Shown: one piece after another, positions 487-38,900 of the stretch | Layout: every line of letters begins with the position of its first letter | How positions within the stretch are numbered: the first letter of the stretch is position 1 | Source of the DNA: a virus | Virus record (IMG/VR): IMGVR_UViG_3300000116_000014 | Coordinates: 12,959-66,478 of that record | DNA: 53,520 nt | Direction: 5' to 3' (one strand) | Program-made: the position numbers and the translations under genes | The notes under the pieces: generated by a model | Databases searched by the model: none | Told to the model about the DNA's origin: nothing | Seen by the model: only the letters and a program-made list of their open reading frames with translations

Positions 487-1007
487 TTTCTATTCGCAAC
501 CAGATGATGGCACTGCTTCCAGATATGAAGCCCATTTCTACTCCGGATCATCCGGTGCAGGGAACCCACTCCAAACCCAGAGGTCGTGCTTATGGCGACT
601 TCTCAGACACCACCATTGACGGGTATAACCAAACCCGAATGGGGTATGAATTTGAGTCCTATTGCATCCCAGAATGGGTGCTAGCAGGCCCATGGAAGCA
701 CCACAGGGTGCAGATAGTCAAAGCCTGCCCTGCCACATGGTCTAGAGTTAATCAGTTTGGCGACAAGGTATACAAGCAACGCGCTTGTACCTTCGGACAG
801 AGTGCCCAGCACAGCCGGTTGGGTGATGATTATAAAGGCATGGAGCTGAGTAACTTATACGCATCCAAATTATTAGTTCAGGATACATTCAAGGAGCTAA
901 TCAAGTTACTTCCCTCTCCAAAGGGTCAACGATTAGATCAAAAGTATAAGAAGAGTTTACAACGAGTCCACTTAGTGTGGGAACCGAAGCAAAAGGAGAA
1001 GTCATAA
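483..1007 (+). CDS. Unknown 174-aa early protein carrying a palindrome insertion
   Basis: ATG follows GGAGG and overlaps the upstream stop. The product is basic, with many aromatic residues in the centre (GYEFESYCIPEWVLAGPWKH) and a lysine-rich C-terminus. I do not recognise a family. Residues 20-24 (PDHPV) are encoded by one copy of the 14-bp palindrome that also occurs between genes elsewhere. The stop overlaps the next ATG as TAATG. Confidence 0.75.
   Translation: MISIRNQMMALLPDMKPISTPDHPVQGTHSKPRGRAYGDFSDTTIDGYNQTRMGYEFESYCIPEWVLAGPWKHHRVQIVKACPATWSRVNQFGDKVYKQRACTFGQSAQHSRLGDDYKGMELSNLYASKLLVQDTFKELIKLLPSPKGQRLDQKYKKSLQRVHLVWEPKQKEKS
542..555. repeat. Dispersed palindrome, copy 1 (intragenic)
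   Basis: TCCGGATCATCCGG, embedded in the 174-aa early gene and read there as PDHP. The flanks (AC before, TG after) match the intergenic copy at 3286. One of seven copies in the window. Confidence 0.85.
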
Positions 1008-1222
1008 TGAGTGATTGTCAAGAGCGGGAAATAGATCAATCCATAAGGGCCGATGTGTATCAGGAGAACGGGTACAAGAATCGTACAGAGTATTTATCGT
1101 CATTGGCTTGGGAACATGAGGTCTCGATAGAGACGGTTCATCAGTACGCATATTTACTGGGGCCATCAGAGGATTTTGATGGGCTGGTGGCGGTATTGAT
1201 GGTGAAGAGGGGTGACGTATGA
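1007..1222 (+). CDS. Unknown small early protein (71 aa)
   Basis: The ATG at 1007 is preferred to an upstream in-frame ATG at 977 because AAGGAG lies 9 nt before it and it overlaps the upstream stop (TAATG). The product is mostly helical and acidic, with no recognised motif. Its last codons GDV-stop contain the ribosome-binding site and start of the next gene, the first case of a stereotyped junction that recurs along this block. Function unknown. Confidence 0.75.
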   Translation: MSDCQEREIDQSIRADVYQENGYKNRTEYLSSLAWEHEVSIETVHQYAYLLGPSEDFDGLVAVLMVKRGDV

Positions 1223-1416
1223 ATCAATATATGAAGTGGAACCATGGGTTCGTTAGCCATGCAATAGCTCAGTATGAGGAGGAGCAGCTGATTAACCTCA
1301 AGAGTATGGAGAGGTATAGGGGTGTGATTGAGGATCCTGATTACAGGTCTGCATCACCCACATTTAAAGAACGGGTGATATTGTCTGACCAAACATATTT
1401 GGAGTGGATTACTTGA
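1219..1416 (+). CDS. Unknown small early protein (65 aa)
   Basis: The start overlaps the previous stop (GTATGA) after a GAGGGG ribosome-binding site. The sequence is charged and helical (AQYEEEQLINLKSMERYRG) without identifiable domains. It is the last gene of the first early block: an intrinsic terminator follows within 30 bases and a 300-base non-coding region comes next. Confidence 0.75.
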   Translation: MNQYMKWNHGFVSHAIAQYEEEQLINLKSMERYRGVIEDPDYRSASPTFKERVILSDQTYLEWIT

Positions 1417-1438
1417 CACCCCAGGAATTACATTGAAA

Positions 1439-1469
1439 AGCCTAGCAGTTAATCTTGCTGGGTTTTTTT
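1439..1469 (+). terminator. Intrinsic terminator of first early block
   Basis: CCTAGCA and TGCTGGG pair (one G-U) around a short loop and are followed by seven T residues. It directly follows the 65-aa gene, so it ends the first plus-strand transcript. Confidence 0.85.
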
Positions 1470-1540
1470 ATGTCTATTGATTTTGTGTGGGTCAAACGAC
1501 AGGGCTTTGTGTGTGTTAGAGCTTTGTCGTTTGCTTATAT

Positions 1541-1722
1541 CTGTATAGGACAGAATGGCACTTGCCGATTTTTGGGGGCCGGTGGATATAAAGTCTTCAG
1601 AAGGGGTAAATGGGGTGTTGGCGTAGTCGTGTAGCCAGTACCTATAGTACCGTGAATCGCCTTGATAGTCAATGGCGGTGCGGGTTTAACTACTAAGTCC
1701 GGATCATCCGGAGGAGAACAAC
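1541..1722 (+). promoter_or_regulatory. Duplicated leader, copy 1, upstream of second early block
   Basis: The gap 1417-1722 holds the terminator and then this leader. Bases 1541-1590 match 6541-6590 at 41 of 50 positions, including the identical block GGCACTTGCCGATT. Weaker similarity (AGTCAAT, TTAAC, TACT) continues to a palindrome copy at 1698 that abuts the Shine-Dalgarno GGAGGAG of the gene at 1723. Short stems are possible (CTGT/ACAG at the start). This points to a conserved 5' leader or promoter region. No consensus sigma-70 promoter was convincing. Confidence 0.6.
1698..1712. repeat. Dispersed palindrome, copy 2 (overlaps RBS)
   Basis: TCCGGATCATCCGGA, a perfect 15-bp palindrome about its central base. 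Its right arm runs directly into GGAGGAG, the ribosome-binding site of the gene at 1723. A bound dimer, or an RNA hairpin with stem TCCGG/CCGGA, would sit over the translation start region. Confidence 0.85.
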
Positions 1723-1917
1723 ATGATAAAACAAGAATTGATTGACGAGGCATTGAGTCGGGTAATTGTTGACGTATTTGTAGGTGACATCACCGCTATT
1801 CAGGAGTTACTTAGACTTACACCCCGAAAAATACTATTAGGTTTCCTAGATGAAGAGAGAGCGGCAGAACTTAAACTCCGTCTGGATAACCCATTCCCTA
1901 CGGAGGACAAGTCATGA
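1723..1917 (+). CDS. Unknown small early protein (64 aa)
   Basis: ATG is preceded by a strong GGAGGAG. It is the first gene of the second early block, behind the leader and palindrome. The product looks alpha-helical (two amphipathic helices, DEALSRVIVDVF and EERAAELKLRL). No family recognised. It overlaps the next start as ATGA. Confidence 0.75.
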   Translation: MIKQELIDEALSRVIVDVFVGDITAIQELLRLTPRKILLGFLDEERAAELKLRLDNPFPTEDKS

Positions 1918-2069
1918 ACAGACAGACAAAAATGGAATTGAAAAGAGAGTTAGCGATACTCGGATGGAGCATCGTCAAGGCAATGTTCTTTTGCTTCTTC
2001 GTCCTCGCCCTATCATGGTCACTGGTAACAGTGGCTGTGACGTTCCAGATAATTCAGATAGGAGGTTAA
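1914..2069 (+). CDS. 51-aa single-pass membrane protein
   Basis: ATG 1914 overlaps the preceding stop (TCATGA) after GGAGG. The basic N-terminus (MNRQTKMELKRE) is followed by a hydrophobic stretch of about 25 residues (residues 19-45, rich in F, L, V, A) and a short polar tail. This predicts an inner-membrane protein with its N-terminus in the cytoplasm. Early phage membrane peptides often affect host division, exclusion or transport, but nothing here identifies which. Confidence 0.7.
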   Translation: MNRQTKMELKRELAILGWSIVKAMFFCFFVLALSWSLVTVAVTFQIIQIGG

Positions 2070-2071
2070 GT

Positions 2072-2293
2072 ATGTGTAATACATGCCCGACTAAATGTAA
2101 TGCCGAAGTGGTGCAGTATGTACCGCTAGGCTATCACCACAAGGAAGTAATCTCTAAGTGTGGTAGCACTGGCCACACTGGAGAAGAACTTAGGTGTGAT
2201 CGATGCGAGAACATCAAGCCTTGGTACATATGTGAGGGCTGCGGCTCTGACATCAGCGAATATGACTGCCCTCGTGGCTGTGGAGAACAATAA
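2072..2293 (+). CDS. Cysteine-rich zinc-ribbon protein (73 aa)
   Basis: The start at 2072 has GGAGG a few bases upstream; longer in-frame extensions lack a ribosome-binding site and cross the membrane-protein gene. The product has cysteines in pairs: CNTC and C9 at the N-terminus, CDRC, CEGC, and two more near the C-terminus (YDCPRGCGEQ). This pattern fits one or two zinc ribbons. A nucleic-acid or protein-binding role is inferred. The stop overlaps the next start (TAATGA). Confidence 0.75.
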   Translation: MCNTCPTKCNAEVVQYVPLGYHHKEVISKCGSTGHTGEELRCDRCENIKPWYICEGCGSDISEYDCPRGCGEQ

Positions 2294-2694
2294 TGATTTC
2301 ATATGCAGATAAGTACAGCCAAGTAATAGTATCTCAAACTCTAGAATCTGAGAGTGCAGAGTATGAGGCAGCAAAACGAAACCCATACGGAGAAATTAAT
2401 CCGAACAAGTTTCTTCAGTCCATCATCAACTGGAAGACTAACATAAGTCATCTCGACTATATCCTCTGGGTATCTCCTATCAATGTAACCGAGGATGGAG
2501 TCGCCTATGAAATAGATTGGGGTACTCACATCCATTCGGTCGTATCTTCAAGTGAGAAATGCTTGGTTGAATATGTCGATGATGAATTGTTCAAGGTGAC
2601 CGCACCTGTTGGGGGTGAAAGACGTTTCGCAATGCGAGGAGGGTTTATTAACAATTCCAACACTCTCGTACCAAGCTGGGGGTCACACTCATGA
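2293..2694 (+). CDS. Unknown early protein (133 aa)
   Basis: Translationally coupled to the zinc-ribbon gene by TAATG. The C-terminal half is beta-rich with repeated aromatic and hydroxyl residues. No domain, signal or membrane segment is recognisable. It ends in an ATGA overlap with the next gene. Function unknown. Confidence 0.7.
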   Translation: MISYADKYSQVIVSQTLESESAEYEAAKRNPYGEINPNKFLQSIINWKTNISHLDYILWVSPINVTEDGVAYEIDWGTHIHSVVSSSEKCLVEYVDDELFKVTAPVGGERRFAMRGGFINNSNTLVPSWGSHS

Positions 2695-3284
2695 GGGAAG
2701 AAACGATCACTATCTATAACTACTCTGAGCTGTCGGATAAGGCTAAGGAAAATGCCTATGAAAACTTCGTGATGAATAATGAGCACCACTTTGCAGAGGA
2801 AGGTATGGATACCCTCATATCTTTTCTTAAATGGTCTGGCATAAGCATAGGTAGATACGAGATAGGTGCCTATCAATATAGCTATATCAGAACGGATATA
2901 CCTGAAGATTGTCAGGAGGAAATACGAACCATGGAGGTCGAGTGTCGCCTACTAGGTCTTGATGAACAGGATACAGAGGACAGACTCTTACAATCGTTTG
3001 ACCAAATGCAGATAGATATAAATCATCTCTCACCAAATCACCCAGATGAGAGTCTAAATCACTGGGGCAGTGGGTGGTGCATGACTGACGATATCATTCA
3101 CTACTGGGATACACACTTGAAAGAAAACCCTCTCGATAACATCGGTGCGCTTCATGCTGTGGTTGATGGAGCACTATCTCAAATGGTAGCCGACTTGGAG
3201 CATCAAGATTCGAGGGAATACTTCGAGGAGGTTATGCAAGATTATCATCAGAATGAGTACCTAGAAGACGGAACCCTACACTAA
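2691..3284 (+). CDS. Conserved phage protein with YxxxELSDKAKExA N-terminus (197 aa)
   Basis: The N-terminus IYNYSELSDKAKENAYENF resembles a family of uncharacterised phage and plasmid proteins that begin with 'ELS(D/E)KAKE(K/N)A', recognised here from memory of the motif only. The rest is acidic, with many histidine and tryptophan residues (WGSGWC at about 125) and a helical C-terminus. No catalytic signature is evident. The gene ends just before a palindrome copy and so is the last gene of its sub-block. Confidence 0.75.
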   Translation: MREETITIYNYSELSDKAKENAYENFVMNNEHHFAEEGMDTLISFLKWSGISIGRYEIGAYQYSYIRTDIPEDCQEEIRTMEVECRLLGLDEQDTEDRLLQSFDQMQIDINHLSPNHPDESLNHWGSGWCMTDDIIHYWDTHLKENPLDNIGALHAVVDGALSQMVADLEHQDSREYFEEVMQDYHQNEYLEDGTLH

Positions 3285-3285
3285 C

Positions 3286-3299
3286 TCCGGATCATCCGG
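3286..3299. repeat. Dispersed palindrome, copy 3 (intergenic)
   Basis: TCCGGATCATCCGG lies two bases after a stop codon and is followed by TGGAGAA, the ribosome-binding site of the gene at 3313. The same layout (palindrome, one base, GGAGAA) is seen at copy 4. Confidence 0.85.
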
Positions 3300-3312
3300 T
3301 GGAGAAATCACT

Positions 3313-3513
3313 ATGGAAAACTTAAGACTAAGAAACGTACAGGTAGGTGGCATTTGCATGGCTGACTACCCAGACTTCGTGGATGCGTATATCTCTTACG
3401 CAGAAGATTCTAATGGGAAAGCCTTGACTGATGAGCAGTTGGAGACCCTGACTAATGAGCATCAGGATTTTGTGCAAGAGTGGGCGCACGATGAAATTAT
3501 GGGGAGAGTGTAA
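3313..3513 (+). CDS. Conserved small phage protein with DYPDFVDAYI motif (66 aa)
   Basis: GGAGAA lies 8 nt before the ATG. The core DYPDFVDAYISYAED followed by an acidic helix (LTDEQLETLTNE) resembles a short protein family common in phages of marine bacteria. This is recognition by motif, and no biochemical role is known to me. The gene follows palindrome copy 3 and overlaps the next start (TAATG). Confidence 0.75.
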   Translation: MENLRLRNVQVGGICMADYPDFVDAYISYAEDSNGKALTDEQLETLTNEHQDFVQEWAHDEIMGRV

Positions 3514-3839
3514 TGAAACTCTATGTGAACGAAAGCCGCACCCAATGGGCTGGTACTCAAGCGGATGCCAAGAAAGAACTTGGTAAGTATGAGGCATTTG
3601 ATGTGCCTGTGGATAAGTCTGGCTTGCTAGCGTTCCTCAATAAGGAGTCAGGATTTAACATAGATCCTGTTGAGGTTGAGCAGCAACCAGTGGTGACCAA
3701 TCAACGTGACACACGCCCTCTTAATGACACTCTAGTGGGACGCTGTAACCTAGTTGAATTAAAGGAACTGTCTACCATGATGAACGTACTTTTGAATCGT
3801 ACATGGAACGACATGGATAAATTAACGGAGGACGTATGA
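3513..3839 (+). CDS. Conserved phage protein MKLYVNESRTQWAGTQ-type (108 aa)
   Basis: The N-terminus KLYVNESRTQWAGTQADA looks like a short conserved phage protein family of unknown function. A beta-strand start, a polar linker around residues 50-75, then a helical C-terminus. The last three residues EDV are encoded by GAGGACGTA, which carries the ribosome-binding site and overlaps the next ATG. Confidence 0.75.
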   Translation: MKLYVNESRTQWAGTQADAKKELGKYEAFDVPVDKSGLLAFLNKESGFNIDPVEVEQQPVVTNQRDTRPLNDTLVGRCNLVELKELSTMMNVLLNRTWNDMDKLTEDV

Positions 3840-4012
3840 AAACTTATACAGTTGTGTGGGAGGTAGAGTTAGATGCTGACAGTCACAGAGAAGCTGCTGA
3901 GGAAGCACGGAGTATGCAGTTAGATGCCTACTCTGAAGCTACGTTTTTCGATGTTACTTGTTTGGATGCTAAAGGTAATGAAATTGAAATAGGAGTTGAT
4001 TTAAATGGGTAA
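3836..4012 (+). CDS. Small beta-alpha protein (58 aa)
   Basis: The start at 3836 overlaps the previous stop after GGAGGAC. The sequence KTYTVVWEVELDADSHREAA is a beta strand followed by a helix rich in A and E, a fold typical of small phage early proteins. A similar strand-helix-strand layout is seen in the 56-aa product at 5458, so the two could be distant paralogues. It overlaps the next gene by 8 nt. Confidence 0.65.
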   Translation: MKTYTVVWEVELDADSHREAAEEARSMQLDAYSEATFFDVTCLDAKGNEIEIGVDLNG

Positions 4013-4343
4013 ATTAAGCAATCAGGAAGTAAGTAGCTACGTTAATAATCTTAAACCGTTCGAGACCAATAGCGGTAGCATATTTTCAGATGGAGGTAGG
4101 GACAAAGGGTTATACGCTGTCTACTCCTACGGGTATCACTTCCCGATGTACGTCTACGACACTGCATCTAAACAATGGTTCGGGAACCACGACAAATACA
4201 GCAACACCACCTCACGCCATCAGAATTGTGCCCAGCCTAGCGCCAAGATACATTGGATGGGAACCCGCGACATGAAGCTGCTCACTGCCGCCGGTTCCCT
4301 AGCTAGAAGGTGTGCCAATAGAATGAAAGGAGAAGCAGCATGA
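4005..4343 (+). CDS. Conserved phage protein with YSYGYHFPMYVYD core (112 aa)
   Basis: The central block (YAVYSYGYHFPMYVYD, then W-x-G-N-x-x-K-Y-S-x-T-T-S-R-H-Q) is a pattern I recognise from many uncharacterised phage and plasmid proteins, where it forms a compact domain rich in aromatic residues. The role is unknown. The start overlaps the previous stop by 8 nt, and an AAAGGAGAA site for the next gene lies in its 3' end. Confidence 0.8.
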   Translation: MGKLSNQEVSSYVNNLKPFETNSGSIFSDGGRDKGLYAVYSYGYHFPMYVYDTASKQWFGNHDKYSNTTSRHQNCAQPSAKIHWMGTRDMKLLTAAGSLARRCANRMKGEAA

Positions 4344-4531
4344 CATCTGATCAACTAAAACTTTTAGCGGCTGTTAACAATGCAGAGTTAGTGCTTAGAA
4401 AAACACGATCAGTCATAGAGGATGCAGAGGCGTCTATTAAATTTTGTAAATTAACTGAGAAGGTTTACCTCAGAAAACTAAGGGCGTCTAAGGCAGCTTT
4501 AAGTAATAACAGGAAGGGAGCTTCAGTATGA
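4340..4531 (+). CDS. Small helical basic protein (63 aa)
   Basis: ATG overlaps the upstream stop (GCATGA) after AAAGGAG. Nearly all residues are in long charged helices (LVLRKTRSVIEDAEASIKF), net basic, and compatible with a coiled-coil hairpin. No recognised family. Coupled by ATGA to the next gene. Confidence 0.7.
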   Translation: MTSDQLKLLAAVNNAELVLRKTRSVIEDAEASIKFCKLTEKVYLRKLRASKAALSNNRKGASV

Positions 4532-4848
4532 TCAAAGTAACCCAGCGTATGTTAAACAAGTCGATCATCGATGCTAACAAAGCGGTGACGTCATTTGTTA
4601 ATGACAATCTGCCCCAAGGGTATGAGGGTCTAACAGATAAGATCACCTACCCTGCCCTAATAGGACGTCCTGATGAATGGACTGATGGCTGGATAGAGTC
4701 TGAGCTAAGGCTTTATAAACGGATACGAGGTGACAAACTTTTGTCAATCAAAAACTTAGGCAAGATAGCTGATGTTGGTGACGTCTTGACCTTTGATTCA
4801 ACTGATGGCGTCAGTGTTTTGATAACTGTAACCAAGGGGGATGTATGA
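4528..4848 (+). CDS. Unknown early protein (106 aa)
   Basis: It starts inside the previous stop after AAGGGAG. Mixed alpha/beta, with WTDGWIESELRLYKRIRG in the middle and a C-terminal beta-rich part ending TKGDV. The final codons hold the GGGGGATGTATGA junction that starts the next gene. No motif points to a function. Confidence 0.7.
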   Translation: MIKVTQRMLNKSIIDANKAVTSFVNDNLPQGYEGLTDKITYPALIGRPDEWTDGWIESELRLYKRIRGDKLLSIKNLGKIADVGDVLTFDSTDGVSVLITVTKGDV

Positions 4849-5246
4849 GTAAATTATATATCGTTTTAGACAGTGAACACCGCATGTGCGATGTAGGCTT
4901 TAACGAAGGCGGGTGCAGCGTGTGGAGTACATACGAGGATGCTTTGCAGTCAGCCCATACAGAACATGCAAGACCCTATGGCCTAACGAATCAAGAAGGA
5001 CTAGATGAAGATTGTCCCTATTATGATTATCAAATTCTAATTGTTGAAAAGATAGGTCACTCAGTCAACCAATGTGAAGTTTACCTGCCAAAAAAAGTAG
5101 ACTTTGATTTTGTTATGGACACCTTTGTATCTGTTCGAGCGCCCGAAGGTACTGACCCTGACGATCTTATTAAAGAGGCCAAGATTAGGTTTCAAGACGT
5201 AGCAAAGAATACTAACTTTGATGTGGTTTTAAAGGAGGATGTATGA
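4845..5246 (+). CDS. Unknown acidic early protein (133 aa)
   Basis: It begins at the GGGGATGTATGA junction. The product is acidic, starting with a beta strand (KLYIVLDSE). It carries DCPYYDYQILIVEKIG in the centre and an EVYLPKK...FVSVRAPEG section that may be a second strand-helix unit. It ends LKEDV, again overlapping the next start. Function unknown. Confidence 0.7.
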   Translation: MSKLYIVLDSEHRMCDVGFNEGGCSVWSTYEDALQSAHTEHARPYGLTNQEGLDEDCPYYDYQILIVEKIGHSVNQCEVYLPKKVDFDFVMDTFVSVRAPEGTDPDDLIKEAKIRFQDVAKNTNFDVVLKEDV

Positions 5247-5449
5247 GTAAAAGATTCTGTACTTACATGAGTGATTCCAATGACTTAACTGATCGTCCGA
5301 TTAGATTTATAGTGGAAGGCCAAAGCCTACCTGACGATTGGTCTGAGTATGTATGGCAGTACGCCAAGGATGGGGACGAAGCAGTTAGCCAACATGTGGA
5401 AAAGCATGATCTCTGGCAAAAAGATCGGGTAGAGAAACACACCTACTAG
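5243..5449 (+). CDS. Unknown small acidic protein (68 aa)
   Basis: ATG within GGAGGATGTATGA. The acidic product has several tryptophans (DDWSEYVWQYAKDGDEAV). The stop TAG is immediately followed by GGAGGATGTATG, so here the junction motif lies just outside the coding frame instead of encoding the C-terminus. No family recognised. Confidence 0.7.
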   Translation: MSKRFCTYMSDSNDLTDRPIRFIVEGQSLPDDWSEYVWQYAKDGDEAVSQHVEKHDLWQKDRVEKHTY

Positions 5450-5457
5450 GAGGATGT

Positions 5458-5628
5458 ATGAAAAAATATAACGTTTACATTACTTATCCAGTTAAACATA
5501 GCTATGAAGTAGAAGCAGAAAATGAAGATGAAGCTAAACAAATGGCTTGTGAAGGCGAAGGCTATATCACAACAGAATATGTGGAGTACAAAACTGAGAT
5601 TGAAATAACCGAAGGAGGAGGCGTATGA
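5458..5628 (+). CDS. Small beta-alpha-beta protein (56 aa)
   Basis: AGGAGGATGT precedes the ATG. KKYNVYITYPVKHSYEVEAENEDEAKQMA is a beta hairpin and helix of the type common in short phage proteins, and the C-terminus has another strand (VEYKTEIEITE). It ends GGGV, encoded by GGAGGAGGCGTATGA, and overlaps the next ATG. Possibly a distant relative of the 58-aa product at 3836. Function unknown. Confidence 0.7.
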   Translation: MKKYNVYITYPVKHSYEVEAENEDEAKQMACEGEGYITTEYVEYKTEIEITEGGGV

Positions 5629-5831
5629 GTAAAGCTGAATCTATATATGAATGGTTCCAAGATCACTTCGATACCTTCGAGTGCTATCCCATGGATTGGA
5701 TTGATTACGCTGACACTGACTTCACTCACACTGATGCAGGTTATGAAGAAGTAGGACGGCTATATAATTGGGACGAATGTTGGGCCATATTGAACGAGCA
5801 TTATCCAAATGTTAAGTGGAGGATGAACTAA
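5625..5831 (+). CDS. Unknown acidic small protein (68 aa)
   Basis: The start lies inside the GGAGGAGGCGTATGA junction. The product is strongly acidic and rich in aromatics (YEWFQDHFDTFECYPMDWIDYADTD has many D, W, F and Y residues). Such acidic, aromatic small proteins can mimic nucleic acid or bind host proteins, but that is inference only. The stop lies directly against the next start. Confidence 0.7.
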   Translation: MSKAESIYEWFQDHFDTFECYPMDWIDYADTDFTHTDAGYEEVGRLYNWDECWAILNEHYPNVKWRMN

Positions 5832-5990
5832 ATGTCTAGTAAAGGTCACTGGTTTCCTTGCGGGAACATAAACATGAAAGGACGTAAGACACAGAAAGCT
5901 CCTTGTGGGTGCTGTAGTGAAATACAGAACCAAAAAGACAAGCTCCTTATAAAAATACATAGAAAAGAAGCTAAGGAGACTTATGACTAA
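5832..5990 (+). CDS. 52-aa cysteine-containing basic protein
   Basis: ATG at 5832 lies about 9 nt after GGAGG, which sits in the end of the previous gene. Cysteines occur as FPCGN and APCGCC, separated by a basic stretch (KGRKTQK), followed by a lysine-rich helix. A minimal zinc knuckle is possible. Function unknown; too small for firm assignment. Confidence 0.6.
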   Translation: MSSKGHWFPCGNINMKGRKTQKAPCGCCSEIQNQKDKLLIKIHRKEAKETYD

Positions 5991-6007
5991 CCAATAACGG
6001 AGGACGT

Positions 6008-6316
6008 ATGGACTATAAGAACAAACCAAAGGTAGCAGTATGTCAGGAGTGTGATTCAGAAGATCTTTCTGCCACAGGGTACTTGTTATGGGATAAAGAT
6101 AAAGGCGACTGGCTTTCTAATCCTAACGATGAGTTGCATGGTGTTTGGTGTTTCGACTGTGATGGCGAATGTATCGTAGACTACATAACAGAAGAGGAAC
6201 TGAAGTTACGTCAGGTAAAAGGAAGGCTCCTCAGTTCTAAGGGTGTCTATAATATAGATCTATACAAAGGAATGGATGCTGGTGCTATCTATAAAAAACT
6301 TCAGGGGGATGTATGA
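6008..6316 (+). CDS. Zinc-ribbon protein, paralogue A (102 aa)
   Basis: The ribosome-binding site is CGGAGGACGT. Two knuckles, VCQECDS near residue 12 and WCFDCDGEC near residue 50, enclose a beta-rich region, a classic four-cysteine ribbon. It is followed by VDYITEEELKLRQVK. The next gene encodes a shorter protein with the same knuckles and the same tail, so the pair is a tandem duplication. Binding of nucleic acid or host protein is likely by fold; the target is unknown. It ends LQGDV at another junction motif. Confidence 0.8.
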   Translation: MDYKNKPKVAVCQECDSEDLSATGYLLWDKDKGDWLSNPNDELHGVWCFDCDGECIVDYITEEELKLRQVKGRLLSSKGVYNIDLYKGMDAGAIYKKLQGDV

Positions 6317-6540
6317 AAACTTATGCCGTCTGTCAGGAGTGTGATTCACTGGAGATTGAAGGATTAGCAACTGTCTTCTGGGATCATGTCGTAGGTGAAT
6401 GGGTGCTACCTCGTGGGGATTATATATATGATTCTGTCTGGTGCCCTCGATGTGAAGGCGAATGTAACGTGGACTATCTAACAGAAGAAGAGCTGAAGGT
6501 ACGTCAGGTAAAGACTAGACTACAAGGTGTCAGTGTATAA
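6313..6540 (+). CDS. Zinc-ribbon protein, paralogue B (75 aa)
   Basis: It shares with its upstream neighbour the blocks VCQECDS, WC-x-x-C-x-GEC, VDYxTEEEL and RQVK, at the same spacing, but lacks the 25-residue C-terminal extension. Starts in the GGGGGATGTATGA junction. It is the last gene of its block: the stop is immediately followed by the second copy of the duplicated leader. Confidence 0.8.
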   Translation: MKTYAVCQECDSLEIEGLATVFWDHVVGEWVLPRGDYIYDSVWCPRCEGECNVDYLTEEELKVRQVKTRLQGVSV

Positions 6541-6736
6541 CTGTATAGCACATACAGGCACTTGCCGATTTCTCGGGGCCGGTACACATAAACAAACTTA
6601 GCGGGTAATACAGAGACATAGGTGTTGAAAACCTATACCTTATTGTGCCCTAAATTTATATTAAAGTCAATCATATCAGTGACTTAACTTATCTACTCCG
6701 GATCATCCGGCGGAGAACTAACTAGGAGTATCCATC
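6541..6736 (+). promoter_or_regulatory. Duplicated leader, copy 2, upstream of third early block
   Basis: Starts at the base after a stop codon. Bases 6541-6590 are 82% identical to 1541-1590. Visible stems include CTGTAT/ATACAG (6541-6557), CCGA/TCGG around a UUUC loop, and ATAGGT/ACCTAT with a 7-nt loop at about 6620-6638. Palindrome copy 4 and the ribosome-binding site of the gene at 6737 follow. No open frame is shared by the two copies, so this is a non-coding leader or promoter element. Confidence 0.6.
6697..6710. repeat. Dispersed palindrome, copy 4 (intergenic)
   Basis: TCCGGATCATCCGG preceded by AC and followed by CGGAGAA, as at copies 2 and 3. It stands 26 bases before the ATG of the gene at 6737, which has a second, better-placed AGGAG of its own. 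Confidence 0.85.
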
Positions 6737-7180
6737 ATGGGATATAGATCAGACGTATTGTGGGTAGCTATTGTGCCATCCATTAAAGAAGCTAATGAAT
6801 GTATAAAAGCATACATGGTGTTGACCAAGTTGGAACAGACACAACCTCCGTACCCTGATGATGTCAAAGGGGTATTCGTAGTGGATACACAAGATGACCC
6901 AGCCTACATTACTTATGTCGGCAGAGAGGTTAAATGGTACGAGTCATCCGAAAGCGTAAACTTCATCAACAATTTTTTTGAATATTATGTGAAGGAATAC
7001 TTTAATGTTAAAGATATGTCATGGGGGTGCAGATTCTTTAGGGTCGGAGAGGAGCATGAAGATGTAGAAGTGGAAGAGTACATATGTGAACGCGAAACGT
7101 ATTCAGAACTTCTTTGGGAGTCGGCTAGTGTAGTCCGTTACATAGAGTCTCCTTTCATAAATAATTATTATCATCAATAG
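6737..7180 (+). CDS. Conserved phage protein of the MGYRSDV type (147 aa)
   Basis: ATG follows AGGAG with a spacer of about 8. The N-terminus MGYRSDVLWVAIVPS resembles a small phage protein family that starts MGYRS(D/E)V and has a ferredoxin-like strand-helix-strand layout; no activity is known to me. The C-terminal half is acidic (EEHEDVEVEEYICERE). First gene of the third block, under the duplicated leader and palindrome. Confidence 0.75.
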   Translation: MGYRSDVLWVAIVPSIKEANECIKAYMVLTKLEQTQPPYPDDVKGVFVVDTQDDPAYITYVGREVKWYESSESVNFINNFFEYYVKEYFNVKDMSWGCRFFRVGEEHEDVEVEEYICERETYSELLWESASVVRYIESPFINNYYHQ

Positions 7181-7253
7181 GAATTATTCCTAGATAAAAC
7201 TGTCTGGGAATGTGTTTAAATCATCATAGATTATATACCTAGGAGGAGGAATC

Positions 7254-7499
7254 ATGACTAAAATCTATGCACCTAAGACCCGCCCTACCCTTGAGGAAGC
7301 TCAAGCCATGGTGGGTGGGTACGTTGCAATGGCAGTCAATCGTCCAGACAAACAGATGCTAGTGGATGAAGATGGGAATTCAAAGGACTTGGATGTGAAC
7401 CACGAGGCATCGTTCATTGCGAACATGAGAATAGTAGGCAACGCTATCGTCCTCACGGGCGATGCGATGTGGATAGATGACGAGGAGGAGGATGTATGA
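7254..7499 (+). CDS. DUF3846-like small protein (81 aa)
   Basis: Very strong ribosome-binding site AGGAGGAGG. The pattern TLEEAQAMVGGYVAM...MLVDEDGNSKDLDVNHEAS...VGNAIVLTGDA resembles the DUF3846 family of phage and plasmid proteins (hydrophobic strand, VDEDG turn, GN-x-V strand). Family function is unknown. The C-terminus EEEDV is encoded by the GAGGAGGATGTATGA junction that starts the next gene. Confidence 0.75.
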   Translation: MTKIYAPKTRPTLEEAQAMVGGYVAMAVNRPDKQMLVDEDGNSKDLDVNHEASFIANMRIVGNAIVLTGDAMWIDDEEEDV

Positions 7500-7804
7500 G
7501 TGAGCCAGCAAAAGAAAATAGGTATACACATCTCACAGAAGAAATCGAGGGAGTCAATCGTACCTACACCCTTGACCTTGAGATTGAGAGGGAAGGAAAA
7601 GAAGTAGTCACTCGATGCAGTGTCGAAGTTAAAGTCCGAGGCACGGTGTACCACACTGACCTAGACGAGATAGACAGACACAATGCCTATCACCCTGATG
7701 AAGACTTCAAGTTATTTTTAAATGACGAGGACGAGGAAGGATTAACTATCCCAAACGGGGATAAGAAAGAGATGTTCAATTGGGCATGGGCTAACGGATA
7801 TTGA
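7496..7804 (+). CDS. Unknown acidic early protein (102 aa)
   Basis: Coupled to the upstream gene by ATGA. Beta-rich N-terminal half (RTYTLDLEIEREGKEVVTR), then an acidic region with YHPDEDFKLF and a C-terminal NWAWANGY. No recognisable family. Separated by only 9 bases from the next gene. Confidence 0.7.
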   Translation: MSEPAKENRYTHLTEEIEGVNRTYTLDLEIEREGKEVVTRCSVEVKVRGTVYHTDLDEIDRHNAYHPDEDFKLFLNDEDEEGLTIPNGDKKEMFNWAWANGY

Positions 7805-7813
7805 GGAGATAGT

Positions 7814-8038
7814 ATGAGTGAAGCAATAGTTAAAGACGCGTGGCGTTTGGTTGATGATAAGGATCAACTCGTTCAAACCGGTGCCGTGTACATTGGACGC
7901 GATGGACTGAAGTTCACCGTAAACGGTGGACAGCCACCACATAAACCCTCAAGCAGTGGCCGAGTATATGGAGACTGGGAAACAGGACACAGTGGGGAAT
8001 ACTTCCCGCATGTATTCGATCTAGTGTGGAAGAAGTAA
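7814..8038 (+). CDS. Conserved small phage protein (74 aa)
   Basis: GGAGATAGT precedes ATG. The sequence is a small beta-barrel-like protein. DGLKFTVNGGQPPHKPSSSG is followed by RVYGDW and EYFPHVFDLVWKK; this arrangement (glycine-proline turn, SSGRV, EYFPxVF-x-L-x-W) occurs in many uncharacterised phage proteins. It is the last gene before a terminator. Confidence 0.75.
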   Translation: MSEAIVKDAWRLVDDKDQLVQTGAVYIGRDGLKFTVNGGQPPHKPSSSGRVYGDWETGHSGEYFPHVFDLVWKK

Positions 8039-8061
8039 TGTAGGATAATTCTATACAACTA

Positions 8062-8083
8062 CCAGCCAAGTGCTGGTTTTTTT
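8062..8083 (+). terminator. Intrinsic terminator
   Basis: CCAGC and GCTGG stem with a 5-nt loop followed by seven T residues. The T-run and following bases (TTTTTTTATGCCTAAA) are identical to those of the terminator at 10540, suggesting the two share ancestry. Confidence 0.85.
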
Positions 8084-8153
8084 ATGCCTAAATCTTATTG
8101 GATATATACCTACACCGAGGGTATAAAAACAATAGTAATTAATTGGAGTGCTT

Positions 8154-8279
8154 ATGATTATCACAATAGCTTGTGTCGCTGGATTCTTCATTGGGTTTAC
8201 TACACACCTTATGCTCACTCGATGGGCTAAGCGCAGGCATCTTGAACTGATTCGCGTCAGCTCTAGTTGGAAGGGGTAG
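8154..8279 (+). CDS. 41-aa single-pass membrane peptide
   Basis: ATG 8154 follows GGAGTGCTT. Hydrophobic N-terminal segment (IITIACVAGFFIGFTTHLML, about 20 residues) followed by a basic tail (RWAKRRHLELIR), so the C-terminus should stay in the cytoplasm. Too short for a family call. First gene of the fourth early block. Confidence 0.6.
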   Translation: MIITIACVAGFFIGFTTHLMLTRWAKRRHLELIRVSSSWKG

Positions 8280-8281
8280 CC

Positions 8282-8972: not shown

Positions 8973-8973
8973 C

Positions 8974-8988: not shown

Positions 8989-8992
8989 CTAT

Positions 8993-9017: not shown

Positions 9018-9040
9018 ATATAAAATTTTTGGAGAAAAAT

Positions 9041-9625: not shown

Positions 9626-9634
9626 GGAAAAAAT

Positions 9635-29924: not shown

Positions 29925-32900
29925 TTATTCTTTACCGAACGTATACTCATTTATTAAATACAAATGCTTCTTGGGTAAGACCACACCTTCAATCGCTGAC
30001 GCTTTCATGATGACCTTGGACTTCAGGCTGGCAAGAAGTGTCTTCGATGTGATCAACTCTGACTGAACGAGATACTTCATAGCTGGATCTTTAATATCAT
30101 TAATGCGCTCCATAATATAATTGTTCCACCTAGTCACAGCCGCCAATGCGTCCTGTACATCTGACTGATCTCCACCTGAAATTGCGGTATAAACATCACC
30201 AAGCACGTTTCGTCTGACCGCTTTCTGTTGTTCAGATTTATTCTTCCCAGCAAATGCCCGACTGTATGTAGAGCTTACGACTTCTGGAGTAAATCCTAGG
30301 GCTTGAATAACTATATCACTCGTGTCGAGTGAATCGATAACCTCCAAATCATTGCGTGTCTTGACACCATTCTTTGAGTAATCAACAGCTTTGTAAGCGT
30401 CCCGTACAACCTTGGGTAATGCAGACTTCAGATTATTAGTGGGGTTTCCTTCATACACATCCTGAGCAAAGTTGAAAGTAGATCCACCGATGCCACCGAA
30501 CACTGGGCCAGCCACTGATAATAAAAGTTCCTTGTAATATTCTTTGCCTGAAGACATCGGACGATCTGGCATCATGATTAACAGGTTCGTGTTCTGTCCT
30601 GTTCTTGATGCTATGTCTACGCCTAACGCATTACCGAGTCCTTTGCTGAGTAGAGCACTCATGAATTGCTGCTCATCATCATCGAACATGCCTCTAACAA
30701 GGTCGTCCAACCATTGAGTAAACTCAACTTCACTTGAGACAACCTCCTCTTCATCATCAGCAAATAAGTTGTACGCTACGCCGCCCATCCACACAGCTAC
30801 GGCTATTGGTAGTACACCTGTTGCCCCAGCTGCTAACATCTGGAATGTGACAAGACCGGCAAGGGCTTTCATTGCTTCTCTACGTTTCTCTGGAGACAAA
30901 GACTTGTCTCTACCTAAAGCCTCACGAGCGAGCTGAGAGTACATGTAGATAACGTGCTGACCATAGATTTTAAAGGTCGTCATCGACTTGATAATGTTGT
31001 TCTCTCGCATAGCCCTTGGACGGTTCTCAGATTCATACAAGAACTGAGTTTCTCCAATCAACTCACGCACCTCGTCATAAATCTTTAGCTCATTCTCGCT
31101 CATCTCTTCAGAGCTTTTGAACGTAGATCCTTTGAACAGCTCAGGGTGCTTGTCTTTGATCAGTCTGTATGTGGCTAATCCAGTGACCTCTCGGTTACTC
31201 ATCTCAGCCCCGTGGAACATATAAGCACCTGTGCGCATTAGCTTCTGCATTTTCGTGCCGAATACGCTAGGCGTTCTCTGATCAGAGTGAGCTTCTTCAG
31301 TGATCGAGCCAACTCGAGTGATGTCTATATCTCCTCGGTCTATTAACACCTTGATAAAGTTCTGCTCATCAGCTGTGACATTCTTATTGCCATCTCGCGC
31401 GAACGACTTGTACGCATCACGCAAAGACAACTCACTCTTGCCAAGATGCCAGTCAGTCATTGTCTTGAGGAACACTGCTGATGTTTTAGCTAGGCCATAC
31501 CGCGCACCGACAATCGGAATTGCTATCGTTGGAACCTGAGTCAAGTTGACAAACGCTGCGGCAGGAGACCAACCAAGGTAATGGAAGAAAGCCAACCGTC
31601 CTGCGTTCGATGCCCATGCTGCGCCTGTTGGATTCATAGTCAACTCGAATCTCTTCGTCATCTCAGCATGTGTTGCTGAAGCAATATCAGCATACTGTTG
31701 CGTAACTTGCGAAGCCTCACCCGTGGCAAACTTGCGATTCTCTAGACCGATGTCGTTCAATTCAGATTGGATTCGATCAGCATACTTAATCTTAGAGATC
31801 TGCTGTGCCGACTGAAGCATCATGTTCTGAACTGACCTTCTCATGTCAGATGACGCACCCTTGGTGCCAAGCCGCTGACGTCTACGCTGCATGATGGAGC
31901 TAGAAGGTAACGTGTTCAGCATCAAATTGTTTATATCAGTCTTGAGCTGTTCAGTTGATGCTCGGATAGACGATCTAGCATTTTCATCCATCATATCATC
32001 ACGAAGAACATCATCCCGATTCTCATCAAGCGCAGTAAATAGATTGTCTCTGAACGAGAAGAGGTCACCTGACTGAGCTGTCTTGCCCATGTCAGCCATG
32101 TACGTCATGCGTGCATTATCTTCACCCCACTTGGACTTGTGCCACTTCAACGCACGCTCAGCTTCTGTGCGGCTCTCGAACTGCTCTCGAACAAACTCCC
32201 TCTTGCCATTAATTTCTGCAAAAGCAATGACAACATGATTGCCAAATCTAGATAGAGGGAAGTATGGGCCGCGCTTAATTAACTCACCCATCCGATTCTT
32301 CAAAGCTTTCTTAGCCGACTCACGATGAACAGGGTTTTCAATCTGCCTATCAATACGAGCAAGTAACTCACTCTGCTCCATCTCATACTGCTCTCGTAAC
32401 ATAACTCGGGTGTCATCATAAACGAGCTTGGCATTAGCGGTGAGCTTGTTCCACTCCCTTCTCAATCGGGCATGCTCGGACTGCATAAAGGCTAAGCTTT
32501 CTTCTAAATTAGAAATGTTTGCCATGTCCACTTTAGTCTTCTTGGGTTTTGCCTTTAGCTTATCAAGCCTATTCTGGTCAAGACGAACAAACTCATGAAC
32601 TTTATTCGCCATTGATTCGTCAGGGTGTATGCCAGCAATCGTAGAATCACGCATGAGACTAGCCAAAGAGTTAGCTTCCTTGGTACTTAACTTGTCCCAA
32701 ATCTTCTCCTCTTTTTCAAACCCATGAAGCGCTCGTTCTTTATCAACTCTGAACTCACCTAGTAAATTGTTAATGGTCTTTAACGGGTTACCATCTTTCC
32801 AGTCAAACGCCGCCTTATAGGTGCGGAAGATCTGAGTATTAGTTAACCAATACTGGAGGAAGTTACGGTTCTTGTTCTGATTAATAACCTTAGAAGCCGA

Positions 32901-35900
32901 ATCAACTGTTGATTTACGGAAGTTCTCAGCTGCTAAGCCACCAAGAATCTTACCTACATTTTCTTCCGAGTCAGCAAATACCTCCATCTGCTTAGGAGCA
33001 TCGAGCTTGCTCACTTTGGAATAGAGAATCTGACCCGCAGTTTGTGGTGCTGTGTTTGCATTAGCATTGTCAGTGTAAACGTGGCGCTTGGCATCTAATA
33101 CTAAGTCTCTTAAATTACCATTCGATGCAATGTAATTGTTAGAGAACGTGCGCTTCATCCACATACGGATAGCGTCATACACACGAGTCATCAATGAACG
33201 AGACTCCAATCCTTCAGCCATCACTGCGATGATCTCCTCAGCTTCCTGCTCACGGCTAAGCTGACCTTCCCTATTCATAACTACTTCAGCCGCAGCAACC
33301 ACTTCAGGATCGCCATTCGCTTTCATGTCCTGCACTTCGTCTAGGATTGAGTTGAACTCATCTCCTAACATAGATTGAATGCCATAGTGGCCAACAACCT
33401 CATGACTAAAGACAGTACGCGCCTCTGACTTAGAGTGAATGTTGTCAGCAACGAGGTACGAAGTCATGCTGTTAGGAATGAATAGACCTCTTGCTGTTGG
33501 GTCGATGTCTGCGTTAAGCCCTGCGGTTGGAATATCAGAAACAGATTGAACCACTTCAACTGAGTGCCCAAGCTTACTCATGTTTGCTAATACAGAATTA
33601 CCTACCCACTTCTGAACATCTTTAACAGACTTACTTGAAAGACCTCTAGCCTTTTCACTGACTGACTGACGAGAGTAGACCACACCTCTGTCGTTGAGGT
33701 CAGTAGCTATTGCCTTAGCATGCGCTGTCTGCCAGACGTAGAAGAACGTTTCATTATTCCTGCTCTTAGGTGTAATGAAAGCACTTTCATTTCCCTTTTT
33801 GTCTAAGGGAAGTATCCTTCTTAGAGTGGCCTCAATAGACGCCTTATTAGCAGGAGTGGCTGTAAGGCTTAAATACTTTTTACCCTTGGCAGTCTCAGCT
33901 GTAATAGGATTAGCGCCATGCCGCTTCAGCTCTTCTATGTAGGTGTCACCAGCCTCTGGTTTAATAGCTGGCTTGACCTCAACTGAACCGAGGTCGCCTC
34001 CTCTGGCCTTAACTGCTTCTATTTGCTGTGGCGTCAACCCACCTGAACCATCACCTTCAAGGTCATAAACAGTTCCATCGTCATCCGCTACTCTGTTACC
34101 ATCTCCGTCTTTAGTCCCTTCCCACTCAAACGAATCAAAGATACTTGGCTCACCGCTCGAACTCAACAGTGTGTTAAGTTTGCGTTTAACCACTAATGAT
34201 TTGTGCTCATCACCTATGCCACCTTCCAGATTAACCACATGAACGACTGAAGCAGACTGGGTATTCTTTCTTGAGACTCGACCAATTAACTGAACCACTT
34301 TATCACCAGACCAGTTCTTGGTGACCATGATAAGTGAACGAGGAGTATCTCCTACAACGTCATCCAAGTTGATTCCAGTACCACCAGAAGCAGCAGTTAT
34401 TAAAGCAACGGGAGCCTTTCCTTCTTGGAATTCTGCTACGTTTTCTTTACGCTCATCTGTGGTGTCTCCCGTAAGCTCCGTATAGTTTATTCCCTCAGAA
34501 TCCAAGCGCTCTTTCATCAAGCCGATGAACCCCATAATTTTCTTATCATCTAAGCCTTTAATAGTTAAATCGTTACTGACAGTCTCCGCTGCTACAATAA
34601 CTTGTTTACCGTTAGCAAGATCTTCTTTAAGCTGTTCTACTGTTGCGTCTAGCTTGAGGTGCTCTTCCCACCTTACGAACTCATTGATCCTTTGGCCCTT
34701 CATCGTACTAGGATTGCCTTTAGCAGCCATCTCTGACGACCACCATCTATCCATCTCACTTTGCTCGATCCTTGATTCTTCTGTCATCTGAACATTAATG
34801 TCATTGGTTGTGCCAAAGAAAGGGTAGTACCGCTTGAGCATACGTCCTGACTTAATGACAAAATCTCTCATCTCAGCTACTTTTTCCAAAGCCCTCTTAG
34901 GAGAAACACCCTTCTTTAGCACCACCTCTTTTGGCCCTTCTATATATAGGCCAGATTTAGTCTTCACCTTCTTACCAGTGGCCAGCTTATGACCTAACCG
35001 ATCAAGCGCTTTCTCATATGTCTCACCTGTTATTTGCGCCCACATGTTAGCACCAGATGAAGCACGATCCATTGGTGTAGCTGTAACGTAAACTACTTTT
35101 TCTTTCCTTAGCCCACGACTTGCCTTAGCTTGAATGGTGTCGTAGTTCTTTAGGTTATGAGCCTCATCAAATAAAACCATACCCCAGTCTTGGTCGAACT
35201 CAGAATTTACTGCGTTCCCTTTCTTGCCGTCCTTAAAACTATTGTATGTTCCCGTCTTAAACTGGTTCATGTCGATGCCCATAATCGCAGCATCTTCAGC
35301 AAAGTTCTTTTTGAGAATCTCGGGCTTCTCAGAAATTATTAGAACCTTCTTACCTGTAGACTTTTTGTATTGATCAGCTATGGCTAGAATTTGTCGGGTC
35401 TTACCAAAGCCCGTACCATCCGCTAACAAGAACCCTTTGTAGTTTTTTTCCATCATAGATGACAACGCTAGATCAACACCCATACGTTGCCCTGCATCTA
35501 ACGAATCAGCATAGACAGATGAGTGATCATTTATAGTTGCACGATCTGGAATAATATCAGGTCTTACTTCGACAGCTGGCAGTCTACCCTTAGCAAGATT
35601 TGTCTCTGTTGCTATTCTTTGTGTAGGTATTCCTACCAAGGTTCTAGATGGATCTCCCAAGTTTCTAGATGGCTTGGACTCAGCTACGATGACCTTCCTT
35701 TGTTCATCTAATTGTTCTATTTGAACAGCTTCTATGGCCTCAGCTTGAGCAGCTTGAGCAGCTTCAGCAGCCACACGGATCTTAGTTTGAGCAGCTACGT
35801 TAGCCAGTAATGCTTCCATAGAAGCATCGAGGCCATCTTCTGATGCTGGCACATTGAACTTGATGTCATCAATCTTTCCATTTACTTGGAGAGAAGTTTC

Positions 35901-38900
35901 CACATCAGCCTCAGTAAACTGCTTACCGAAACTCTGCAACGTCCTGCGAACATCTGCCTTGGTGTAGTGCTCATAGAAGCCCACCTTACGGAGTGCCTTC
36001 ATGACGTATGAAACAATCGCATCCCAAGCTTTACCAAACTTAGATTGATCTGCCTCTTCAGCTACTCGTGCAAAAACTTCTTCAGCAATAGAAGACTCTA
36101 TGCTCTCGTCAGTAGCTCCCTGATTTTTCCAACCATCAATGTAAGGCTTATATCTGGTACGAACATTATCAAAAATGAGAGTCATTTCTTTGTTCTGACC
36201 TTCTGCCTTAGACACCCTGTTTAATATATCCATCTTCTCTTCAAGAGTAGTAAAGACAGACAAGCCATAGTGGGCAAGGATTTCGTGGCGCAGAACAGAC
36301 TCAAGTTCAGCCGTGTTATTAATTCCAGCAGCGTTTAGCGTCACTACTTTATTCTTTAGGCTACCGACAGCTGCACCGTCAGGCACAGGTGTGTTGATTA
36401 TGTTGTACTTAATATCAGGTATGCCGTTGTACTTAGCTTCAAAATTATTTATGACTGATTGCACAGACGCAACAGACATACCATTCGTATTTCTTAGCTG
36501 ACTTCTAGATACAAATTTCCGCCCAAGAATATCTGCGACATCAAATATGTCATCTATATCAGAATTAGTAATACCACTGGCGGGTTTAGATTTTTTGACT
36601 ACAACGCCTAATTCAACTAACGCCTTTTCTATCTTTGGGATAAGCGCCTTCGCGGCTTTGCGATCCGCAGCATTAAGCGTAGTATCTTTTGAATTAGACT
36701 TCGCATCTTTTAAACCTAATTGCAGCTGATCTATCTGATCTTGATCTGCGGTTGCGTCAGCAGGGTCTATCTCAATCTCTGGATCAGTGTTATCCGCATA
36801 GCCATTCAAGTCTCCCCAGTCTTGTTCATCATCAATCGTGAGATCTTCATCAGCAGTAAGGGTTGTTTCACCCAAAAATTCTTTAATAGGATCTGTGTTG
36901 CTAACAGTAAATGTTTCAGATTCAGCTTCAGCTTCAGCTTCAGTTTCATCGACTGTCTTTGCTTTTGTGGGTAGAGGCGGAAGGTCTGGGTCTGAGGCTA
37001 TGACCTCTAACTGCTGCATTATATCTTCAGTAGTTAGACCATCATCAGCCTTAGTCTTTTTACCCTGTCTTACAGGTGCTCTACCAGCTTCCTCAATGGC
37101 AGCGTCTTCCTCCTGTTCTTCTTGTATTGCAGCGTCACTTCTTAAATCGTTTTCACGTTCCAACTTAACCTTCGCCTGAAACAAAGCTTTGGTTGGATTA
37201 ATAACGTGGACAGCTCCATCAACCTCACCATCACGGAAGTAAAGAGCTTGGTTCTTAAGCTTCCCCCGTACTGATTGTGAGTTAGCCTTGGAAACTTTAA
37301 TACCAACAAGCAGCCCCGTATCTCCATCACTTAATACGTCTTCCTTTCCTTTTGCTTTCTTATGGCTACTTAAGAATTCATTGATAGCCGATGTGTCCCC
37401 CATCAAAGTCACAGACCCATCATCATTCTCTATCGAATCAAACTTGCTTACTGAATTGAACATGATGGATACTGCTTCAAGCCTATCCTTACCCTCTTCT
37501 AGCTCGAACTTACCTTTCTGTTCCCCACTTGCAAGCAATGCGTTAACAGTGTTGATGCGTAGGTTTGCAAATTCAGTTGCGGCTATTAAGGTGTCTGATT
37601 TTCCATCAGAATCAACATCAAGTAGTTCGCTTATGTTTTCCTCAGTGAGAGCCTCCATGCTATCCCCTTTGATGTAATCAAATAGGGGATCACTCTTGCG
37701 TGTAAGCATAAAGAGTTGGGGTTGGTTAGGGTATTTCTCGCTAGGAGTTTGGGCTAGGACGTAAGGTAATCCGCTATTCTCAATATTCTCTTGAAGGTTA
37801 TTTCTAGGCTCAGTAACAGCAACGTCTGTAGAAGCAGCTTCCTCGGACTTACCTACTGTGTCCATCCTGCTAACAGAAGTGACTACAAAGAAGTCATCAG
37901 ATACCTGTGATTTCTGAACGTCATAAGCACTGTTAGATCCGATTGTTTTTAATGCGTTCTCAGCAGACGTCTTATTGTCGTATGCCATCGGTTCATCTGT
38001 GCGCATTTTCTTTGAAGGGATCAAAGCGTCAAGAACAAATGACTTCTGCTCTCCAAACAAACCAAGGGTAGCTGTAGGACGATAGAGTCCCAATCCCTTT
38101 CGTTCAAGATCCTTAGCCTCTTCCACAGCCGCATCCTGCGTTGCAAAGACTTGAGCATAAACATCATCAGTGCCCTTCTCCCCCACATAAAGAGCAAGCT
38201 TTAAACCATCACCCCTTACTACAAACTGGAGAACCCTATCATCGTTAACTAGATCTGATGGATCATTGTTTGATGTTGATCCTACATCCTTTAAATCGAA
38301 CGCTACTTCCGCAGCTGCTTTAGCCACAACCTCAGTTGTATCTTGCACCGGATCATCCGGACTTGAATCAACAACTTCATTTGTACTAACTGGGTCTTCA
38401 ACTTCGTTAACATCTGTATTACCTTCAAATAAATCATTAGCTTGTGGGTTTTGTACTGGGTCTGCCTGAGTGGTTAAGCTTACGCCACCATCGAGGCTGA
38501 ACCCGTCAACCTCTCGGTCAACTTGGTCTTTAGTTTCACCTGCATCAAGGTCTCGATCTGCTTTGGTAGCAAGGTCTTCTTCGGTTTGAGTGGATAGTTC
38601 AAGGGCTGGCGCAGCTACTTCATCATCTGTAGTTTCTGCTACCACTGGCGCAGCTACTTCATCATCTGTAGTTTCTGCTACTACTGGTTCAGCTACTTCA
38701 TCATCTGTAGTTTCTGCTACTACTGGCGTAGCTACTTCATTACCTGTGAGTTCTGCAACGAGTGCAGGGTTGGTGTGCCAGTTTTGCCATTCGCGCTTCT
38801 GGTCTTTTAGTTCTTCAATCCTAGCTCTAACCGCTTCAGGATCTTTTACATTAACCCCTTCAGCCTTAGCTAACTCTGGATTATTTGATGCACCTGTAAC

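Follow-up and report, generated by a model that had tools for sequence, protein, structure and literature searches.

The virus record IMGVR_UViG_3300000116_000014 (66,478 bases; G000) carries eight copies of a 15-bp palindrome dispersed over 39 kb, and related phages carry palindromes of the same build at matching positions, with both arms rewritten by lineage. Seven of the copies lie in the stretch analyzed here (the window; 53,520 nucleotides, positions 12959 to 66478 of the record), to which coordinates refer unless another record is named. On the pattern of these sequences we hold, with moderate confidence, that the copies are operator-like DNA sites, dispersed for a symmetric regulator of changing specificity. 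A symmetric, probably dimeric DNA-binding protein would bind the same dyad everywhere, at the head of a long early operon, at gene boundaries within that operon, and inside a few genes. Protein on these sites would impede initiation at the head and elongation further down, and the operon would thereby be silenced or tuned. We infer that the binder is most likely encoded by the phage and that its effect is repression or a roadblock.

Distribution of the palindrome

An earlier note on this DNA had reported seven copies of one 15-mer. A direct check of the sequence found a copy at each of the seven coordinates, and the 13-bp core CCGGATSATCCGG is identical in all of them (543, 1699, 3287, 6698, 8975, 23050, and 38348), but the full 15-mer is exact only at 1698, 8974, and 23049, with a single outermost-base difference at each of the other four. 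The eighth copy (G000:12329) is outside the window, 630 bases before its position 1; the early operon on the plus strand opens with a gene whose ATG is about 100 bases downstream of this copy. The note had also held that the repetition is not accidental, and this was borne out: allowing up to three mismatches, the window gave 8 matches against a shuffle mean of 0.70, and none of 100 shuffles reached 8 (one of the 8, at 12141 with three mismatches, is weak). Across the whole record, the largest family of palindromes with 6-bp arms had 8 members, and the largest in order-1 resamples (n = 30) had 2. Chance is thus a poor explanation of the family.

The surroundings of the copies (Table 1) are as the earlier note described them, with GGAGAA immediately behind three copies that precede ribosome-binding sites, one copy at a transcript end, and three copies in coding sequence that read PDHP or PDDP. 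Those three, one of which lies on the minus strand, share a common codon register. Five of the eight copies are noncoding, and by a hand-made gene list about 7% of window positions 1 to 16038 is noncoding. The copies at 1698 and 6697 are not independent, because both terminate copies of one leader of about 190 bp that is present twice in G000 and whose homologs share an AGTCAAT core. A search of viral_contigs for the leader pattern found it in G003 alone (a relative described below), and leader folds were not clearly better than those of shuffled sequences (z-scores of −0.61, −1.16, and 0.08), and therefore no claim of a riboswitch is made. An Rfam search gave no match at the palindrome sites. 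Within window positions 1 to 16500, 24 σ70-like promoters were observed and 31.8 were expected. The exact word followed by a Shine-Dalgarno (SD) sequence gave four single matches in viral_contigs, about the number estimated for chance; these were without DNA similarity to G000 and were dropped.

Matching sites in related phages

The exact core was present in none of the 11 relatives first compared, including the closest syntenic one, G003 (IMGVR_UViG_3300027771_000011), whose record does not extend to the part that holds the first four copies in G000. This result was misleading until respelled forms of the word were recognized. Scans of TerL loci for the dyad family (11 loci and then 18, the 11 among them) sorted the records into three spelling groups: TCCGGATSATCCGGA in G000, L037, and L038; a mixed form, TCCGG(C/T)TSAGCCGGA, in G003 and L044; and TCGGGTTSAACCCGA in L046, L047, L052, and L054 to L057. 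A palindrome stands at the operon head in all 11 records that reach it (G000 and 10 of the 18 TerL loci, the other 8 of which stop short), with L044 having a poor version, ACCGGTCTAGCCGGA. Since the first-gene products of the two main lineages have no significant similarity, the head sites of these lineages match by position.

The half-sites of G000 and of the TCGGG group are spelled in concert. All 16 half-sites of G000 contain CCGGAT and 15 of 16 in L046 are TCGGGTT; agreement is close within G000 and within each TCGGG record, and the half-sites of G003 and L044 are mixed. Both arms are respelled at matching sites after the 87-amino-acid gene, at the leader end, and in the ortholog of gene 483-1007. 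In the L044 ortholog of that gene (84% identical), the 542 site has become TCCGGTTGAGCCGGT and reads APVEPV rather than TPDHPV, with the flanking residues mostly kept, and in this gene pair the protein changes (PDHP to PVEP) follow the DNA word. An in-gene site of L046, in a gene without detected similarity, has the same codon register, but that at L046 7163 has a different one, and a common peptide is therefore not the cause. L046 has 8 palindromes within about 7 kb, or 9 if a degenerate one with two mismatches is counted; its palindrome at 1733-1747 provides the stop codon of a gene encoding a helix-turn-helix (HTH)-like protein. Read in the late (plus) direction, the L046 head-site palindrome (8344-8362) itself scores as a terminator-like hairpin, with a tail rich in T.

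The comparison of occupied and empty orthologous sites that the earlier note had proposed was run with G003. After the 87-amino-acid gene, TCCGGCTCAGCCGGA replaces the TCCGGATGATCCGGA of G000 (the L046 counterpart is TCGGGTTGAACCCGA), and the counterpart of the 6697 site is degenerate, TCTGGCTAGACCGGA. The 23049 word is absent from the G003 Erf gene, which reads RTDDDPEG where G000 reads RTPDDPEG, and the 38347 word is degraded but partly kept in the giant gene of G003; the alignments have no indel at either site, the gaps around 38347 being some 30 bases off. Some G003 copies have no equivalent in G000: TCCGGTTCAGCCGGA, ahead of an SD sequence, and TCTGGCTGAGCCGGA, ahead of a terminator-like stretch. 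The earlier suggestion of a small mobile repeat, dispersed through insertion, would account for the high identity of the copies and for sites occupied in one relative and not in another. It is disfavored because G003 lacks an indel at 23049 and 38347 and because matching sites, such as those at 8974 and 542, are respelled rather than empty; with four sites lost, degraded, or respelled in G003 and no indel at any of them, insertion is a poor explanation of the dispersal, and we find such an element hardly credible.

Very improbable as well is that the palindromes are recombination linkers through which early-gene cassettes are shuffled by way of short homology and the phage Erf/RecE system. Sites do lie between small early genes, Erf- and RecE-like proteins are encoded, and gene order differs between the lineages. 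However, no rearrangement accompanies the differences from G003 at the in-gene sites 23049 and 38347, and a block that is nearly identical in G000 and G003 (around 8396-8870; a MazG-like gene and most of the 87-amino-acid gene, with more diverged flanks) neither starts nor stops at a palindrome. The near-identity of this block suggests a recent exchange.

More distant relatives were also searched. In 11 partial stretches from 10 records, 10 had no dispersed palindrome family and L059 had a clustered triple. A first search of genome_contigs found no relative, and a later one found a single relative (45% in TerL) in a metagenome-assembled genome labelled Paracoccus, with no repeated perfect palindrome. 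In L013, outside the window, the gap that separates the late operon from the early one (about 11069-11265) has repeated words of the GACCTGTTCGCGTGCTGGACAGGT type.

The probable target and a candidate binder

The symmetry of the word was assessed in 53 hand-picked sites from 12 records, which were reduced to 41 unique sites by merging those identical in word and 8-base flanks; the degenerate L046 site and the weak match at 12141 were excluded. The center is C or G in 51 of the 53. Watson-Crick pairing holds in all 53 for positions 2/14, 4/12, and 5/11, in 44 for 3/13, in 48 for 6/10, and in 51 for 7/9, and the outermost position is also paired in 35 of the 41 unique sites. At the operon head, the central base is the sole difference between L046 and L057 across about 25 bases on each side, and the sites of L052 and L055 are exact reverse complements of those of L054 and L056. 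The dyad symmetry through the center, the swaps of the central base, and this one reversal in place lead us to infer that the target is double-stranded DNA. DNA is preferred over an RNA hairpin because the dyad extends to positions 7 and 9, which are separated by a single base and could not pair in a hairpin. The C/G swaps and the reversal would be natural in double-stranded DNA, because its two strands are equivalent.

A dimeric regulator was among the explanations offered in the earlier note, and these features, together with the respelling of both arms, make it the best supported of them. The XRE-type proteins that the note had put forward as binders look wrong, as there is no palindrome beside the Cro-like gene. 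The gap there has repeats of the TTTCGTATT type, which are probably the CI/Cro operators and form a word distinct from the palindrome. The note's other candidate, the 87-amino-acid HTH-like protein encoded beside the 8974 site, is the leading candidate binder but a weak one. In the four records with a readable gene of this family, a palindrome lies at or overlaps the gene end in G000, G003, and L046 but not in L033; further searches for relatives of the protein returned G003 and L033 alone. Its structure model has four helices (mean predicted local distance difference test score [pLDDT] of 79). The best Foldseek E value was 1.6 and the best VIA-align Z score was 6.0, with many LuxR/NarL-type HTH rows, a weak likeness to LuxR/NarL-type and other HTH domains that is no more than suggestive, although a Z score of 6.0 may reflect a shared arrangement alone. 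The product of the first gene was also considered as a binder and was rejected; its model is poor (mean pLDDT of 52.6), and the first-gene products of the lineages are without significant similarity.

A number of observations weigh against a DNA operator with a phage-encoded binder. The G000 and G003 87-amino-acid proteins are 92% identical and have the same putative recognition region, but the sites of the two phages differ at position 6 (an objection qualified by the position of the gene in the nearly identical stretch). L033 has a relative of this protein, but a palindrome is missing after the gene, and the 7,555 bases of L033 contain no palindrome family. A CI/Cro-like pair is already present in the record, and a second master repressor would not be required. 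Support for a promoter at the head site is weak, with 3 matches of 9/12 in 600 bases of G000 compared with 0.9 (standard deviation, 0.9) expected, a single one of them on the early strand, and no match on the early strand in L046. The sites are also uneven between strands, with a sense-strand center of C in 37, G in 14, and A or T in 2 of the 53, and with T at the left edge in 40 and A at the right edge in 36 of the 41 unique sites; these asymmetries weigh on the same side because strand-equivalent sites should be even. A stable RNA hairpin (5 to 7 bp, with a triloop) formed in all eight stretches that were folded, and the 16 departures from pairing in pairs 2 to 7 comprise 10 G-U pairs and 6 mismatches, a split that does not settle between RNA and DNA.

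Several of these points would favor an RNA hairpin, a short stem with UCA or UGA as its triloop, at ribosome-binding sites, at 3' ends, and inside genes; by recognizing it, a ribonuclease or an RNA-binding protein of the phage would exert posttranscriptional control of many early genes. Covariation of the arms, with wobble pairs prominent among the departures, the preference for C over G on the sense strand, and the copies abutting ribosome-binding sites (three) or a terminator-like hairpin (one) can all be read in this way. We nevertheless consider a hairpin somewhat unlikely, given a dyad that reaches positions unpairable in such a loop, a center that is nearly always C or G, with one exchanged for the other at matching sites, the site reversed in place, and the departures that are not wobble pairs. 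In addition, the head site may be upstream of its promoter, itself a weak match, and the SD sequence is mostly outside the stem. The earlier note had proposed that a hairpin hides the SD sequence. The folds are indeed stable, but hiding is not general: GGAG adjoins the stem, and in the minimum-energy folds of 1690-1735 and 6689-6745 two or three GGAG bases form weak pairs; the SD sequence is roughly 9 nucleotides past the palindrome at L046 6138, 5538, and 3600; and other copies are found within coding regions or ahead of terminator-like hairpins.

KorB operators are odd-length dyads with a C/G center, which the dispersed dyads of G000 resemble. It is possible, if quite improbable, that the palindrome is a ParB- or KorB-like site that loads a clamp or partition protein spreading along the DNA for long-range silencing or prophage maintenance. 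KorB of plasmid RK2 is a global regulator whose operators are effective from a distance (PMC11790492), but it is a plasmid ParB-family system, and a Pfam scan of 39 of the window's open reading frames and the first early gene found no ParB-like domain. The integrase of G000 further suggests chromosomal integration.

Comparable systems and genomic setting

Symmetric sites bound by dimeric repressors are known from λ-like CI/Cro operators; unlike these, the CI/Cro-like gap of G000 has other repeats and not the palindrome. Cluster A mycobacteriophages (L5 and Bxb1) have 20 to 30 dispersed repressor sites, some at promoters and most elsewhere; these stoperators lie in short intergenic spaces, have lineage-specific motifs that vary with the repressor, and mostly share one orientation, each being an asymmetric 13-bp site for a monomer (PMC6550527, PMC9283540). 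G000 and L046 resemble them in the many copies dispersed through the genome and in the lineage-specific words, but the G000 sites are 15-bp dyads, are fewer (8), and are in some cases inside genes. The Bacillus prophage SPβ has a repeated 15-bp element, SPBRE, which is intergenic and in promoter regions and was later shown to be bound by the master repressor MrpR (PMC10516654). The G000 palindrome is likewise a 15-bp element that recurs in a temperate phage genome, but its copies are at ribosome-binding sites, at a gene end before a terminator-like hairpin, and in coding sequence. In Cluster K mycobacteriophages, some genes have conserved short repeats of unknown function where translation starts: the start-associated sequence (SAS), which is asymmetric and 13 bp long, and ESAS, a pair of imperfect 17-bp repeats with a spacer and a consensus that differs between subclusters (PMC3203893). 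Placement at some translation starts is shared with G000, but unlike SAS its words are dyads that also occur in coding sequence and before a terminator-like hairpin. None of the stoperators, SPBRE/MrpR, SAS/ESAS, and KorB fits every defining feature, and the palindrome may be regarded as a variant of dispersed phage operators. A literature search for palindromes upstream of SD sites found none, which is no proof of absence from print, and the four core spellings occurred in 2 papers, both on other topics as judged by title and start of abstract.

A bolder interpretation, which we consider unlikely, is a phage-wide posttranscriptional hairpin regulon spanning ribosome-binding sites, 3' ends, and genes, in which the specificity of an RNA-binding protein changes with the copies, or, for a DNA target, a symmetric "stoperator" code that relatives rewrite one site at a time, sites being inverted where they stand, in step with diverging immunity types.

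Table 1. Palindrome copies and other features of the window
Feature	Positions	Strand	Context
Palindrome TCCGGATCATCCGGT	542-556	+	Within open reading frame 483-1007; reads TPDHPV
Palindrome TCCGGATCATCCGGA	1698-1712	+	Right before GGAGAA and ATG 1723; end of leader block 1
Palindrome TCCGGATCATCCGGT	3286-3300	+	Between stop 3284 and ATG 3313; GGAGAA directly behind
Palindrome TCCGGATCATCCGGC	6697-6711	+	Right before GGAGAA; end of leader block 2
Palindrome TCCGGATGATCCGGA	8974-8988	+	Just after stop codon, between 87-amino-acid gene and terminator-like hairpin
Palindrome TCCGGATGATCCGGA	23049-23063	+	Within Erf-like gene; reads TPDDPE
Palindrome copy	38347-38361	−	Within 4181-amino-acid gene; reads SPDDPV
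Leader block 1	1537-1726	+	Ends with 1698 palindrome; homologous blocks in G003, L046, L054, L055
Leader block 2	6536-6738	+	Ends with 6697 palindrome
87-amino-acid HTH-like protein	8709-8972	+	Weak candidate binder; relatives in G003, L046, L033
Terminator-like hairpin with T run	8993-9012	+	Just behind 8974 copy
Cro-like XRE-type HTH gene	21109-21330	−	Label given by position
Gap beside Cro-like gene	21331-21547		TTTCGTATT-type repeats; 0 palindrome copies
CI-like XRE-type HTH gene	21937-22269	+	Label given by position
Erf-like gene	22528-23307	+	
4181-amino-acid polyvalent protein	29925-42470	−	SNF2/ResIII helicase, LPD39, DarB-like similarity

The gene content of G000 includes family matches to an internal virion protein (phrog_511), a primase/helicase, Erf-like and RecE-like proteins, and an integrase, and the lineage is temperate-podovirus-like. 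The virion protein matched 170 records, 106 of them Vibrio phages, with 32 to 36% identity among the best 20 of the 170. A near-identity search of GenBank phages with window positions 1 to 25000 and part of the giant gene gave no match. A MoxR-like ATPase and DUF2201/VWA genes (11371-14692) have relatives in L050, in which no palindrome of the family was found. Inside the 4181-amino-acid gene, repeats spaced 39 bp occur near 38612-38730. Just upstream of the SSB gene at 24381 is a match to the Rfam Proteo-phage-1 RNA (RF03044; 24200-24286, plus strand) that scored 34 bits against a gathering score of 42 (E = 0.02).

The lineage-wide respelling of the palindrome at matching sites is recognition-site evolution on a genome scale, in which the target word changes and many dispersed sites follow. 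Three spellings are found in close relatives, and the mixed half-sites of G003 and L044 represent intermediate forms. If the operator reading is true, a mechanism that the cited papers describe in Mycobacterium and Bacillus phages would extend to this podovirus-like lineage, to which our searches turned up no close relative in GenBank.

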